Below, one piece after another: positions 15,545-20,615 of a stretch of DNA of 35,459 bases. The DNA is from Methanolobus sp. GTDB lineage: Archaea; Halobacteriota; Methanosarcinia; Methanosarcinales; Methanosarcinaceae. Every line of letters starts with the position of its first letter. Position 1 is the first letter of the stretch. The translations under genes and the position numbers were made by a program. Under the pieces are notes generated by a model. The model had not been told where the DNA came from. It worked only from the letters and a program-made list of their open reading frames with translations, and made no database searches. The DNA is taken from contig NZ_JADQBZ010000012.1 in assembly GCF_016278365.1 (NCBI RefSeq), forward strand, positions 1-35,459, given 5' to 3'.

Positions 15545-16450
15545 ATGAAACATCTTATCTCAATGGCTGACCTCTCGCAGGAAGAGATCATCGAACTCCT
15601 TGATGTGGCAACAGACCTGAAAGAAAAACGTGTGAAGGGCAAGGTCACCGACCTTCTGAAGAATAAGAGCATCGGGATGATCTTCGAGAAATCATCCACG
15701 CGCACCAGGGTGTCTTTCGAGGTTGCCATGAACGACCTCGGGGGCCATGCGCTGTACCTGAACCCGAGGGATATGCAGCTTGGCCGCGGAGAGACTGTGG
15801 GCGATACCGCCAAAGTGCTCTCGCGCTACCTCTACTGTATTGTCGCAAGGGTGTACAGCCACGATACTGTCAGTGAGCTTGCGGCGCACTCTGATGTGCC
15901 TGTCATTAACGCACTCTCGGACAGGGAGCATCCCTGCCAGATAATCGCAGACCTGATGACCATCCGCGAGTACAAGAACCGGCTCAAGGGACTGAAATAT
16001 GCCTGGGTCGGCGACGGTAACAATGTGTGCAATTCCGCCATCCTTGGCTGTACGCTGGTGGGAATAGAAATCGCGGTTGCCTGCCCGCCCGGATATGAAC
16101 CAGACCCGGAGATAGTGAAACAGGCCAGGCGGCTTGGCGGCAAAGTGACGGTCACCAACGACCCCGCAGAGGCTGCAAAGGATGCCGATGTCCTCTATAC
16201 CGACGTATGGGTGTCCATGGGAGATGAGGACGAGCGCGAGAAGCGCCTCAGGGACCTCGCCCCCTACCAGATAAACACGGAACTTGTCAACCTTGCAAGA
16301 CAGGATGCCATCGTGATGCACTGCCTCCCCGCACACCGCGGAGAGGAGATCTCCGCTGAGGTCATGGACGGCCCTCACTCCGTAGTCTTCGACCAGGCCG
16401 AGAACCGTCTGCACTCACAGAAAGCCCTCCTGCTGAGAATGATGGCCTGA
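15545..16450 (+). CDS. argF: Ornithine carbamoyltransferase
   Basis: Converts ornithine and carbamoyl phosphate to citrulline in arginine synthesis. The 301-aa protein has the carbamoyl phosphate motif [12 protein letters not shown], the ornithine/carbamoyl site motif [14 protein letters not shown], the domain 2 segment [13 protein letters not shown], the SMG loop ([10 protein letters not shown]) and the catalytic [11 protein letters not shown]. All active-site residues appear present. It begins 20 nt after purD, with aagggaatgatagc carrying the ribosome site. The tRNA-Leu follows 70 nt downstream. Confidence 0.97.
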
Positions 16451-16521
16451 GGGCCATCCCCATATTCTCACCCAAACACAAAGTTTAACTAGAAAAAGCG
16501 CTACTAAGCATCATTCACAAT

Positions 16522-16609
16522 GCGGGAGTCGCCCAGCCAGGTCAAAGGCGCTAGATTCAGAGTCTAGTCTCGTAGGAGTTCGTGCGTTCGAATCGCATCT
16601 CCCGCACCA
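16522..16609 (+). tRNA. tRNA-Leu(CAG)
   Basis: A complete type II tRNA. The acceptor strands gcgggag (16522-16528) and ctcccgc (16599-16605) pair perfectly. The anticodon stem ctaga/tctag encloses ttcagag with anticodon CAG at 16558-16560, which reads CTG. A long variable arm and the T arm gttcgaatc follow. The discriminator A is at 16606 and CCA is encoded at 16607-16609. An AT-rich island begins immediately downstream. Confidence 0.96.
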
Positions 16610-16612
16610 TGA

Positions 16613-16618
16613 TTTTTT
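16613..16618 (+). terminator. T-tract terminator after tRNA-Leu
   Basis: A run of six T begins four nt after the encoded CCA, as expected for archaeal intrinsic termination after a tRNA gene. Confidence 0.5.
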
Positions 16619-16731
16619 GGGATATGGTTAACACAAATTTTATGTACGCTACTTTTTACATACACTTTCATTTCAACTTTATACACTGCAATGTTTTTTT
16701 ATATTAGTGGAATTGTAGAATAAAATAGAAA

Positions 16732-16742
16732 TGTATATATCC
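16732..16742 (+). promoter_or_regulatory. TATA box for the first island gene
   Basis: The sequence tgtatatatcc lies about 43 nt before the ATG at 16779. The implied short leader carries the ribosome site aaggtgg at 16768-16774. Confidence 0.45.
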
Positions 16743-16778
16743 TAAAAATTTTACACTCTCTATAACTAAGGTGGTCTT

Positions 16779-17216
16779 ATGAGAGATTTCTCGGTAGAAT
16801 TACCAACAAATTATAAAGCTGAAAACTATATTAAATTAAGTCCAGCTGAAAGGAAGTTGTTTGATAAATTTATAGAAGATCAGATTGCTTATAATCAATC
16901 ATTGGCTAAGGCATTTAGCAGCCAAGCAACCTCTTTTCATGAGGAAAAAGAAAAGATCTCTTATGAAAGAGCAGATTCGACTTACATACCATTTTTAGCA
17001 TATTGTTGGAGAGTGGCTGCTACAGCGATAGGTGGGTCAGTTGTTCTATTTGCAGCTATTTTCAGATTACCTCTTATTGAAGAAACACAATTACGAATCT
17101 ATGCAATAATAGTCTCATTTATAGCAGTAATCATGATTTTAGGATTATTTGTACCACTTCGACTACTTCCTAAAAAACCTCTATATAAAAAGGAAGATGC
17201 ACCTGAAACTTTATAA
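16779..17216 (+). CDS. Hypothetical protein with two C-terminal TM helices
   Basis: A 145-aa protein of unknown family. Residues 1-65 are soluble, helical and charged. Two TM helices follow, near residues 77-97 (VAATAIGGSVVLFAAIF) and 107-130 (YAIIVSFIAVIMILGLFVPL), and a short basic tail ends it (KKPLYKKEDAPE). The ATG at 16779 has aaggtgg four nt upstream. The next gene has the same plan (soluble helical N-terminus, two C-terminal TMs, PL..LP.K-type ending), so they may be distant paralogues or a membrane pair. No function can be assigned. Confidence 0.72.
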   Translation: MRDFSVELPTNYKAENYIKLSPAERKLFDKFIEDQIAYNQSLAKAFSSQATSFHEEKEKISYERADSTYIPFLAYCWRVAATAIGGSVVLFAAIFRLPLIEETQLRIYAIIVSFIAVIMILGLFVPLRLLPKKPLYKKEDAPETL

Positions 17217-17251
17217 TTAACGATTTATAATAAAATAAGGACTTGGGTAGC

Positions 17252-17647
17252 ATGTTCGATGATGAAAGATTTATAGACATTGAACCGGATGATATTAGTA
17301 ACTTAAGTTGTGAAGAAGGAGAAAAGCATTCACGTTTTAAGGCATATCTTCTTGGTTATTCTGATTCAGTCCAACAGCTTCAATCAGCAGAAGATGATGC
17401 TCTTCGCAAGTTTAAGCAAAGAAATACAATGTTAAAATCTGCGAACAAACAAATTCCAATTAGGGTTTATTTTGAAAAACTGGGATTATTTTTGCTGTTT
17501 GGTTTTATCTCTTCTTACTATATCCTAACATCAAATGAATTGCAAATAACACAATCTTATATCAAAATGTTTCTTTTTTTACTGCATATACTTCTTATAA
17601 TTATGGCTGTGTTCATTCCTCTTTTTGTCTTTCCCAACAAGCTCTAA
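17252..17647 (+). CDS. Hypothetical protein with two C-terminal TM helices
   Basis: A 131-aa protein of unknown family, 35 nt after the previous gene. An acidic N-terminus (MFDDERFIDIEPDD) and a helical region to about residue 65 precede two TM helices near 73-93 (LGLFLLFGFISSYYIL) and 104-127 (MFLFLLHILLIIMAVFIPLF). It ends VFPNKL, echoing the PLRLLPKK end of the upstream protein. A TTG at 17243 is in frame, but the ATG at 17252 is preferred, with aagga about ten nt upstream. It is probably co-transcribed with the upstream gene. Confidence 0.7.
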   Translation: MFDDERFIDIEPDDISNLSCEEGEKHSRFKAYLLGYSDSVQQLQSAEDDALRKFKQRNTMLKSANKQIPIRVYFEKLGLFLLFGFISSYYILTSNELQITQSYIKMFLFLLHILLIIMAVFIPLFVFPNKL

Positions 17648-17824
17648 ATCCCAATTAATCTAAATGAAGTTTGTTAATCAACTTTAAAACTAAACTGTTG
17701 ATTCTTCTTAATATTTCTATCTTTAATCTTCAAGTAAGCCAAAGTATTCAGTTGTAGGATTATCTTCACTTTCGAGCTTAATCTTAAATATTTCGTATGA
17801 CACTAAGCATAAACAAATAGAAAT

Positions 17825-17835
17825 CTTTTTATAAC
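17825..17835 (+). promoter_or_regulatory. TATA box for the 461-aa island gene
   Basis: The sequence tttttataacc lies about 60 nt upstream of the ATG at 17889. The predicted leader holds ggagat just before the start codon. The rest of the 240-nt gap from 17648 is AT-rich and shows no coding potential. Confidence 0.4.
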
Positions 17836-17888
17836 CTATAACTTTAAACAGAAACTGTCCTAATGAACATTACTGCCGGAGATAAATA

Positions 17889-19274
17889 ATGGCTTTAGAT
17901 GGAAGGGATTATACTAAAAGAGATAAAAATGGAAATATTGACTACTCGAAAAACATACATTCTAAAGACTTAGATGAATTTGTAAACGAATCCTATAAAG
18001 CTGCGTTGAATGATAAAGAATCCAATGCAAAATACTGTGAATATTGTAAAAAAGAACTTAAAACATCATATAATAGAGAAAAAGTCTTAAAAAATAGAAT
18101 TCAGGATGGCATAGTTTCTAGCTATTTTGTTAATGAAGTAATAGTGAAGTATGAATCTGAACAGTGTACAACGTGTAAAAAGTATTTTTGTCACGAGTGC
18201 ATGGATTCAGTTCGTGATATTAGCTATGATGCAGTGTTGAATGGTTTATGTCCAAAATGTTCAAAAAAATTTATAGGGCTGGTTAATGAAATTGAATACA
18301 ATTCTGCAATAAATAAATCAGAACCAAGTTGTTCCAAAAGAGATGATTTTGTAGAATGCAGACAAGCAGATTTAGTCAAGATTAAAGCCAAACTTGAACC
18401 AGTAATTCAACCACCATCTGAACCAGTAATCAAATCAAAACCAAAACCAGTAATTAAACCAGTAATTAAACCAAAAAAGTATGAAATTTCAGAATCCCAA
18501 TGCAAAGAACATACATATTCAAGAACACGGATAGGAAATGACTTCTCTGGAAGTCAATATGAGGGTGTATGCATTTATTGTGGGAATAAGAAACAAGACT
18601 CTGATTTTCCAATATTAAAGCACACAGGAGTACGGAAGAAATCAAATATCCCATATAGTAAGATCTTTACAATTCTTGCACTAATCTCAGTTTTATCGAT
18701 AATATGGTTTTATGGTGATGATATTTTTCCATCAGATGATTTTAATGAAAATGTGTTTAATCCTTCACTAGGCATAATTAATCTTAAAGCATCTGGCGAA
18801 CCTGTAGTTTTAATTAACAACGAATCTGCAACTAATCCAACATGGGATGAACTAATAACATTTTTGAAAACAGATGACACAGATAGGATTCTGTATAAAG
18901 ATGACGTTTTTGTATGTTCTGATTTTGCAGAAAGACTTCATAACAATGCTGAACAAGCAGGAATTAGGGCAGCTTTTGTTACAATATACTTCTATAGTGA
19001 CAGTGACGGACATGCTTTGAATGCATTTGAAACAACTGATAAAGGGTTAACATATGTAGACTGCACTGGTTCTGATGTTAAGTTACAAGAATTGGATAGC
19101 TTTGACAAAATTGCATACGTCGAAAAAGGGAAAGAATACGGCATTGTTTCTATACATTACACAAATACTCCTGAATACGAATTTTACGAACTACGTAAAG
19201 ATAATGTACGCCTCAGAGGCTTTTTTGAAAGTATGGGTGTTGTCAAAGAAGTAGATATATATTGGAAGTTGTAG
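17889..19274 (+). CDS. Zinc-finger, single-TM, transglutaminase-like protein (uncharacterised)
   Basis: A 461-aa mosaic protein. Residues 1-20 hold a tag (RDYTKRDKNGNIDY) shared with the small gene at 19343. Eight Cys follow in C-x2-C-x39-C-x2-C-x4-C-x2-C-x16-C-x2-C spacing (C50 to C124), the cross-brace pattern of FYVE/RING-like fingers. A Pro/Lys/Val linker (170-197, PVIKP repeats) leads to a C-x2-H/C-x2-C ribbon (C205, H208, C228, C231) and a TM helix at about 257-275. The C-terminal domain has a transglutaminase/cysteine-protease triad order: Cys343 (VCSDFAE), His375 (GHALNAF) and Asp391 (YVDCTG). The finger is likely cytoplasmic and the enzyme domain outside; this topology is inference. 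Substrate and function are unknown. Confidence 0.8.
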   Translation: MALDGRDYTKRDKNGNIDYSKNIHSKDLDEFVNESYKAALNDKESNAKYCEYCKKELKTSYNREKVLKNRIQDGIVSSYFVNEVIVKYESEQCTTCKKYFCHECMDSVRDISYDAVLNGLCPKCSKKFIGLVNEIEYNSAINKSEPSCSKRDDFVECRQADLVKIKAKLEPVIQPPSEPVIKSKPKPVIKPVIKPKKYEISESQCKEHTYSRTRIGNDFSGSQYEGVCIYCGNKKQDSDFPILKHTGVRKKSNIPYSKIFTILALISVLSIIWFYGDDIFPSDDFNENVFNPSLGIINLKASGEPVVLINNESATNPTWDELITFLKTDDTDRILYKDDVFVCSDFAERLHNNAEQAGIRAAFVTIYFYSDSDGHALNAFETTDKGLTYVDCTGSDVKLQELDSFDKIAYVEKGKEYGIVSIHYTNTPEYEFYELRKDNVRLRGFFESMGVVKEVDIYWKL

Positions 19275-19342
19275 TTTTCCGACATATTCAAGTAACTTTA
19301 GCAGAATTAAAAAAATGGTAACGACATTGATGGAGATTAACA

Positions 19343-19519
19343 ATGGGGCTAGCTGACAGGGATTATACAAAAAGGGATTCTAAAGGCAATATTAACTATA
19401 AAAGGGGTACGAATATCGAAGATTTCGCGCAACGAAGTTATGCCCAATCTGTGAAAAAACGGGATTCAAGCTTATACTCTAAAATAAAAAACAAGATTCG
19501 CAGATTATTGAGATTATGA
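19343..19519 (+). CDS. 58-aa protein sharing the RDYTKRD N-terminal tag
   Basis: A small gene with ATG at 19343 and tggag about eight nt upstream. It encodes 58 residues beginning MGLADRDYTKRDSKGNINY, which matches the start of the 461-aa protein (MALDGRDYTKRDKNGNIDY) and continues with a weaker match (DF...SYAQS against EF...SYKAA). It ends in a basic amphipathic segment, KIKNKIRRLLRL. It could be a stand-alone version of the tag domain or a truncated paralogue. The strong N-terminal conservation, with a start and ribosome site, argues that it is translated. Confidence 0.6.
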   Translation: MGLADRDYTKRDSKGNINYKRGTNIEDFAQRSYAQSVKKRDSSLYSKIKNKIRRLLRL

Positions 19520-19587
19520 AATAACGGCAGTGTTGAATATAATTTCTTCAAGTTGCAGCTAAATATGAGATTTCAGGAGAGAATGGC

Positions 19588-19830
19588 ATGGGGATTGACA
19601 GATTAATACTTGATCAAAAGGAAAAAAGCAAACAATCGATGGAACCTCAAAACATGAATCCGACTGAAACTTGCATAAATGAGGTGCCATTAAACCAACC
19701 GTTTAACAAGCAAACTGAAAATACTTCTCCGTCTCTTAAAAATAGAAAAAACGATAACATCGTCATTACAAGAAGTCCTGAACATCAAGAGAAGATTGAT
19801 AAGGTAAAAAGTATGCTCAATTTGAAATAA
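19588..19830 (+). CDS. Small polar hypothetical protein
   Basis: An 80-aa protein of unknown family. It has a short hydrophobic start (MGIDRLILDQKEK), an Asn/Pro/Thr/Lys-rich and probably disordered middle, and a C-terminal amphipathic helix (SPEHQEKIDKVKSMLNLK). The ribosome site aggaga at 19575-19580 lies seven nt before the ATG, which supports translation. It is the last gene of the island, 68 nt after the tag-only gene. About 200 AT-rich nt without coding potential follow, up to the flavoprotein gene. Confidence 0.5.
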   Translation: MGIDRLILDQKEKSKQSMEPQNMNPTETCINEVPLNQPFNKQTENTSPSLKNRKNDNIVITRSPEHQEKIDKVKSMLNLK

Positions 19831-20033
19831 CTTGTCTGGTTAATCCGTCCCTTGAAATTTGCTTTCCAGGCTCTGTAGACCTTGTTTTCTACTTTATTTT
19901 CATAATCACTTTAAATGATTAAACCCTTAAATATACTACAAAGTCATATATTCCCTATTATTTTATACTCTCATCTTCATACTCTACTTCGATTTAATTT
20001 ATAATCCTAATCACAAAAAGAGGAACCAACATC

Positions 20034-20615
20034 ATGAAAGTAATAGCAATAAACGGCAGCCCACGAAAAGAGGGCAACACAGCCGCTCTCCTGAAAGAGC
20101 TTCTTTCGGAGCTTGAGGGCGAGGGCGTGGAGACTGAGCTTATACACATAGGCGGGCAGAAGGTTCATGGATGCACTGCCTGCATGAAGTGCTTTGAGAT
20201 GAAGAACGGGCAATGCGTGTTCGATGACGACCCGATCAACGGGTGTATCGCGAAGATGAGGGAGGCGGACGGGATCGTTATCGGGTCGCCGACTTACTTT
20301 GCTGATGTGTCAACCGAGGTGAAGGCGCTGATTGACCGTGCGGGATTTGTGTCTATAGCGAACGGGGGCTTCCTTGCCAGAAAGGTGGGGGCTGCTGTGG
20401 TGGCCGTGCGCAGGGCAGGGGCGGTGCATGCTTATGATTCCATCAACCATCTCTTTGGGATATCCAATATGTTCACCGTGGGCTCTTCTTACTGGAACCT
20501 GGGGGTGGGGCTCAATCCGGGGGATGTGATTGATGACGCTGAAGGGATGCAGACCATGAGGGACCTGGCCTCCAACATGGCGTGGCTGCTGAAGAAGATT
20601 CATAATAATCCTTAG
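20034..20615 (+). CDS. Iron-sulfur flavoprotein (Isf-type, NADPH-dependent FMN reductase fold)
   Basis: A 193-aa flavodoxin-like protein. The FMN phosphate loop is NGSPRKEGNTAALL at the N-terminus, and a compact cluster motif C-x2-C-x2-C-x7-C (Cys47, 50, 53, 61) follows, as in Methanosarcina iron-sulfur flavoprotein. The segment GIVIGSPTYFADVSTEVKAL is typical of the family. Such proteins carry one [4Fe-4S] and FMN and accept electrons from ferredoxin, with proposed roles in oxygen or peroxide reduction. The ATG at 20034 has gaggaa about ten nt upstream. Composition returns here to the GC-richer chromosomal type. Confidence 0.92.
   Translation: MKVIAINGSPRKEGNTAALLKELLSELEGEGVETELIHIGGQKVHGCTACMKCFEMKNGQCVFDDDPINGCIAKMREADGIVIGSPTYFADVSTEVKALIDRAGFVSIANGGFLARKVGAAVVAVRRAGAVHAYDSINHLFGISNMFTVGSSYWNLGVGLNPGDVIDDAEGMQTMRDLASNMAWLLKKIHNNP

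Follow-up and report, generated by a model that had tools for sequence, protein, structure and literature searches.

The known systems closest to the tag considered here are GlyGly-CTERM/rhombosortase, LPXTG and PEP-CTERM, in which C-terminal tags are accompanied by a co-distributed membrane enzyme and can occur on up to 13 proteins per genome (Haft and Varghese 2011, PMC3237569, in the excerpts consulted). According to the same excerpts, terminal homology tags have earlier led to whole processing or sorting systems. Here we report a tag that is similar to GlyGly-CTERM in being a short terminal homology region on otherwise unrelated proteins and in being tied to membrane anchoring, a pattern that, in the consulted part of PMC3237569, suggests a single reader. 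It differs from GlyGly-CTERM, LPXTG and PEP-CTERM, which are described there as a C-terminal motif, a transmembrane (TM) helix and a basic cluster, in being N-terminal, predicted cytosolic and usually present once per genome. The tag is nearly invariant, occurs in many phyla and is partly carried by tiny genes that may be skipped by annotation. No description of it was found in searches of open-access papers, and this shared front tag suggests an undescribed docking or sorting signal.

The window, a 35,459-nucleotide stretch of a Methanolobus sp. genome, contains two neighboring forward-strand genes encoding proteins of 461 aa (17889-19274) and 58 aa (19343-19519, with GGAG upstream). The first-pass annotation had claimed that their N-termini share a tag and that similarity drops quickly afterwards; the ORFs, their coordinates and their starts are as claimed, and similarity fades past about residue 20. 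Both tags, MALDGRDYTKRDKNGNIDY (17889-17945, forward strand) and MGLADRDYTKRDSKGNINY (19343-19399, forward strand), include an exact RDYTKRD site and the longer local form TKRDxxGNIxY, and the two 57-nt stretches are identical at 42 of 57 bases. In a degenerate pattern scan of the 2.87-Mb host genome, the only exact RDYTKRD matches were these two protein starts, while 55 looser rows with two to three mismatches each look like background, since a reversed control yielded an equal number. Within the same genome, the 461-aa query matched the 58-aa protein (E 0.0017) and also an untagged paralogue of its own C-terminal half, encoded elsewhere. The window tag represents a local version of a broader motif, M-[GSA]-L-x-D-R-[DE]-Y-[MT]-[RK], which archaeal and bacterial proteins carry at their starts; the tag occupies residues 1-10, and its core is L-x-D-R-[DE]-Y-[MT]-[RK]. 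The tag is not specific to archaea; its wide occurrence beyond them had been overlooked in the first-pass annotation.

The 461-aa protein consists of the tag, a Zn-ribbon region, one TM segment and a papain/transglutaminase-like C domain, and no Pfam or NCBIfam family scored above cut-off for it; its Zn_ribbon_19 match (E 2.4e-4) is under the gathering score. The Zn-ribbon region (18036-18260, forward strand), predicted to be cytosolic, has CxxC pairs at residues 50, 93, 101 and 121, and a further pair is located at residue 228. The TM segment is predicted at residues about 254-272 (18648-18704, forward strand); basic residues before it and acidic residues after it point to an N-in topology. 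The C domain begins at residue 301 (18789-19271, forward strand) and includes Cys343, His375 and Asp391. In an alignment of 27 domain members, His75 and Asp91 (domain numbering) are invariant and Cys43 is present in 90% or more, giving the Cys/His/Asp order of papain/transglutaminase-like hydrolases, and a helix starts at the Cys in the AlphaFold2 (AF2) model, which was built with four viral-contig relatives (pTM 0.70, mean pLDDT 65). The best structural neighbors of this model are papain- and transglutaminase-type enzymes (Z 5-7; best Foldseek E 0.087). Because Z scores of 5-7 can reflect a common arrangement alone, the superfamily assignment is likely, not proven. Its predicted fold and Cys/His/Asp order resemble those of Transglut_core, protein-glutaminase and MOA cysteine hydrolases, whereas its Pfam sequence matches to them are weak: no family model scored above cut-off on the 27 members, Transglut_core was matched in three of them (best E 0.13) and Gln_amidase only weakly (best E 0.019). 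In the PDB, the sole sequence relative of the 461-aa protein was 9jdd (Peptidase C39-like, E 0.13), and a profile of the C domain retrieved three unrelated reductases alone (E 0.2 or worse). No relative of the 461-aa protein was found in plasmid records. The enzyme domain is also encoded, without a recognizable tag, on four viral-collection contigs (L343-L346).

The 58-aa protein is composed of the tag, a polar middle and a basic amphipathic tail that includes the C-terminal segment SLYSKIKNKIRRLLRL (19469-19516, forward strand). The hydrophobic moment of the 22-residue tail is 0.96, compared with 0.60 in shuffles of the same residues (p 0.006), and its charge is +8. The gene is kept in a second species (G118) with 90% amino acid identity; the NG86 estimates for this pair (dN 0.045, dS 0.156) rest on just 11 differing bases. 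Homologues of 62-66 aa were found in G136 and G126, and no sequence relatives in the PDB. A third small ORF, overlooked in the first-pass annotation, encodes an 80-aa protein (19588-19830, forward strand), whose homologues with E < 1e-10 were detected in only three of the 185 genomes of the order (G000, G118 and G126), always with the small tagged gene upstream.

In archaea, the tag is carried by a range of protein bodies. A search of the 185 genomes of the order with the 58-aa query, in which tags were called by reading of the best matches, revealed tags in at least eight other genomes among those matches (G118, G136, G126, G109, G103, G124, G104 and G114), on small proteins (55-66 aa), on one of 157 aa and on two with Zn ribbons (198 and 216 aa). 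An ATG-anchored pattern gave 28 matches in 237 genomes of the class, compared with five in the reversed control; 15 of the 28 were read as tag starts, one of which (L053, in G118) is a 34-aa remnant only, and the other 13 were internal or fragments. The bodies new at this level were a C2H2/TM/enzyme protein of 367 aa from G001 and G002, which belong to another family, and, in G224, a Zn-ribbon protein of 88 aa. A third pattern, applied to 392 genomes of the phylum, yielded 13 matches in 12 genomes and none in the control, including, in G389, a protein of 57 aa and, in G316, one of 358 aa with a CAP domain (Pfam E 4e-18). Homologues of the enzyme domain were present in 42 of the 185 genomes of the order. 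Among 30 fetched loci, the tag was in or beside the enzyme in seven, and a separate small tagged gene adjoined the enzyme gene in four (G000, G118, G136 and G094); small tagged genes are recurrently found next to this enzyme family. Close enzyme homologues without a tag or with a decayed one (MGSDDQGYSKMDKNGN, MKLDGWDFSKKDKNGK) indicate that it is dispensable there.

In bacteria, the ATG-anchored pattern M-x-L-x-D-R-[DE]-Y-M, with residues 2 and 10 left free, was scanned against named genomes and matched at least 115 stretches, and the taxa among the matches listed include Verrucomicrobia, Kiritimatiellae, Lentisphaerae, Planctomycetes, Aquificota, Spirochaetes, and Alpha- and Betaproteobacteria. 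The two free positions covary: among the 96 listed sites with Arg in the core, R or K occupies residue 10 in 62 of 72 sites with G, S, A or P at residue 2, versus 3 of 24 others (Fisher p 7.6e-11). Fewer than 60 open codons precede 58 of these 62 covarying sites versus 17 of the 34 others, again among the matches listed; the tag list excludes ORFs with more than 60 open codons upstream, although 4 of the 62 good sites have them. The first residue slot varies, with 12 of 108 tags beginning directly with M-L. N-terminal placement was also seen with patterns free of the ATG anchor, as 27 of 32 unseeded matches in two combined surveys were at protein starts: 13 of 17 in a Verrucomicrobiae-type class (141 genomes, including a Prosthecobacter-labelled bin), all 13 being rhomboids, and 14 of 15 in a Kiritimatiellae-type class (116 genomes), mostly 35-66-aa proteins with one in a 509-codon frame. 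The corresponding figure in genomes chosen for holding a tag, 28 of 30, is biased by that choice. With these patterns, most tagged genomes show a single tagged protein.

When residues 1-14 were cut off, the 112 distinct tag-start ORFs formed 35 BLAST clusters, or 31 once four chance ORFs (L301, L314, L054 and L181) were dropped, a count that probably over-splits small proteins and includes L131, which resembles a cut rhomboid. The named bodies are Rhomboid with DUF6576, Bax1-I, CAP and helix-hairpin-helix; others are relaxase-linked plasmid proteins, inovirus-like proteins and proteins of 35-66 aa with a basic/hydrophobic or TM tail. A TM segment is predicted in 10 of the 12 cluster representatives of at least 100 aa, versus 217 of 712 other ORFs from the same loci (Fisher p 2.8e-4), and 27 of the 31 representatives have either a TM segment or a basic amphipathic tail by crude thresholds. 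Tails of 22 small proteins are basic and hydrophobic and hardly more amphipathic than shuffles (median p 0.42), the bacterial ones among them showing no excess; the shuffles thus gave no support for strongly amphipathic tails in the bacterial small proteins, which we had considered.

Rhomboids make up the largest tagged cluster (38 of the 112 ORFs), and one scanned member (L302) matches both PF01694 (rhomboid) and PF20216 (DUF6576). Across 12 tagged rhomboids (23-71% identity to the first of them), M1, D5, R6, Y8 and M9 are invariant, and an unconserved linker comes after them. In an AF2 model made from 12 sequences only, residues 1-10 have a mean pLDDT of 48 and lie away from the confidently modelled TM core, as a free motif would. 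A rhomboid homologue in a Planctomycetota bin (L112, 3648-4514) has lost the GASx serine motif and kept both the tag and a C-terminal DUF6576-like motif. Planctomycete-type rhomboids show MGLYDREYYRE-like tag forms: in a scan of 59 such genomes, 10 of 15 matches were tagged rhomboids, one of them seeded, and five were chance. The consulted part of a rhomboid review (PMC12615303) mentions N-terminal domains and, as motifs, WR and GxxxG; the tag is not among them. The tagged window proteins are not rhomboids themselves and differ from rhomboid proteases in this respect, as Pfam and NCBIfam detected no rhomboid domain in them.

Tagged proteins are also found on mobile elements. Homologues of a sphingomonad tagged protein of up to 260 aa were detected on 37 plasmid records, and three inspected genes of this group (L347-L349) are located just after mobF on large plasmids; their tags read MGIDDRDYM or MGIDDRDYV, or are removed by the annotated start (L347, RefSeq). 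Inovirus-like contigs (L201, L202, L195 and L192) encode tagged single-TM proteins of 68-94 aa, with the tagged gene overlapping the end of a Zot-like gene in L201 and L202; Zot-like or pI-like genes were confirmed on two tagged contigs of this type. No relative of two of the inovirus-like tagged proteins was found in phage records. Viral occurrences of DRDYTKRD were rejected as tags, as all four matches, each on a viral contig, are internal to a portal-like phage protein (by eye); the tag letters alone are therefore not unique. A further viral scan with a longer M form gave no match. A role of the gene starts as RNA or DNA elements was likewise rejected, since there is no Rfam match in 16400-20100 and the Leu, Arg and Asp codons vary among tag sites.

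The first-pass annotation had compared the tag to recruitment or targeting signals that mark proteins for a common partner or location. Its modular part stands, as the tag is an N-terminal element of different proteins; the common partner or location finds no support, with no recurring partner gene and mostly one tagged protein per genome. In the gene neighborhoods of 87 loci, ORF clustering detected no neighbor that recurs across tagged families, nor, within these neighborhoods, a recurrent candidate for a co-distributed processing enzyme. Neighbors are lineage-bound, such as an S4-domain pseudouridine-synthase-like gene beside Kiritimatiellae-type small genes and an aldolase-like gene in Aquificota (by eye). 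The idea that the tag marks several proteins of one cell fits some genomes only, the host of the window included, and the usual single tagged protein weakens the view that many proteins share one place.

In our best explanation, to which we give an even chance, the tag is a short linear motif at the cytosolic N-terminus of proteins bound to or associated with the membrane, and it most likely serves as a ligand for docking or targeting. Its N-terminal place, the unconserved linker behind it, its retention in a serine-less rhomboid and its low model confidence all suggest a ligand for another molecule; its cytosolic topology and docking role are what we infer from these features. A factor in the cytosol or at the membrane surface would read the tag. 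The 461-aa protein would hold its tag and Zn ribbons inside and its papain/transglutaminase-like enzyme domain outside, with one TM segment between them, while the 58-aa protein would display the same tag on a basic amphipathic tail at the membrane surface. The same factor could then recruit both, and the 58-aa protein may act as an adaptor, competitor or co-factor of the enzyme. With one tagged protein per genome, the putative reader must have further tasks or a general one; so few clients would be odd for a sorting system, which counts against docking or targeting. A bolder proposal, which we consider rather doubtful, is that the tag represents one ancient 'address' at the N-terminus that directs proteins of bacteria and archaea to the inner side of their cytoplasmic membrane, with a single conserved reader; rhomboids, surface enzymes and tiny tail-anchored or amphipathic proteins would be its clients, and it would have been copied onto conjugative plasmids and filamentous phages.

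The same N-terminal place, largely on membrane proteins whose topologies differ greatly, would also suit a signal that acts while the protein is being made, at the ribosome or as it enters the membrane, and that has no function afterwards, and the tagged proteins of plasmids and inovirus-like contigs depend on host machinery. We think this unlikely: to our knowledge most membrane proteins lack the tag, and elsewhere rhomboids and TM proteins insert without it. A short, terminal, exposed motif modelled with low confidence could instead be a degron or turnover handle for a membrane-associated AAA+ protease, and small membrane proteins, as many of the tagged ones are, are typical quality-control clients; conservation across divergent rhomboids, one without its serine motif, suits a stable role equally well, and there is only a small chance that turnover is the answer.

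The shared TKRDxxGNIxY form and the identical bases make local copying between the two window genes likely. That the 58-aa gene only repeats the start of the 461-aa gene and means nothing further is nevertheless very unlikely, as the 58-aa protein has a conserved tail of its own and is accompanied by the 80-aa gene in G000, G118 and G126, and tagged proteins unrelated to the 461-aa protein refute duplication as the whole story. According to the first-pass annotation, the 58-aa gene would be just a truncated copy if no proteins other than full-length homologues of the 461-aa protein had the tag; we found it on rhomboids, Bax1-I, CAP, helix-hairpin-helix, Zn-ribbon and 35-66-aa proteins. Ten residues are too short to trace ancestry, so the archaeal and bacterial tags might be unrelated look-alikes that arose by convergence or chance. 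We find this barely credible, since the archaeal forms MGLADRDYM (G001, G002 and G389) and MGLADRDYT bridge both groups and the archaeal patterns outnumbered their reversed controls in the class and phylum scans.

The tagged gene pair of the window is located in an AT-rich island (GC 31.5% in 16610-20000 versus 51-53% outside), with a tRNA-Leu (CAG) gene at its edge (16522-16609, forward strand). The island also encodes two adjacent small hydrophobic membrane proteins of 145 and 134 aa (16779-17647, forward strand), which show weak DUF2207_C and PycTM similarity only and have no match in the G118 locus. A reading of the tagged proteins as a defence system found no support in PADLOC, which gave no match for four of the five island proteins, the tagged ones among them, and a weak PycTM-like one (E 0.004) for the 134-aa protein. 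AN1-like zinc-finger membrane proteins (by eye) adjoin tagged genes in relatives (L259, 8066-8587; L257, 8438-9412). The G118 locus has the same tRNA-Leu and holds a related gene set broken by a transposase: the homologue of the 461-aa protein is interrupted by a transposase-like ORF (L255, 8263-9387; IS256-like by eye), leaving a 138-aa tagged Zn-ribbon fragment, while the enzyme part and the small tagged gene persist.
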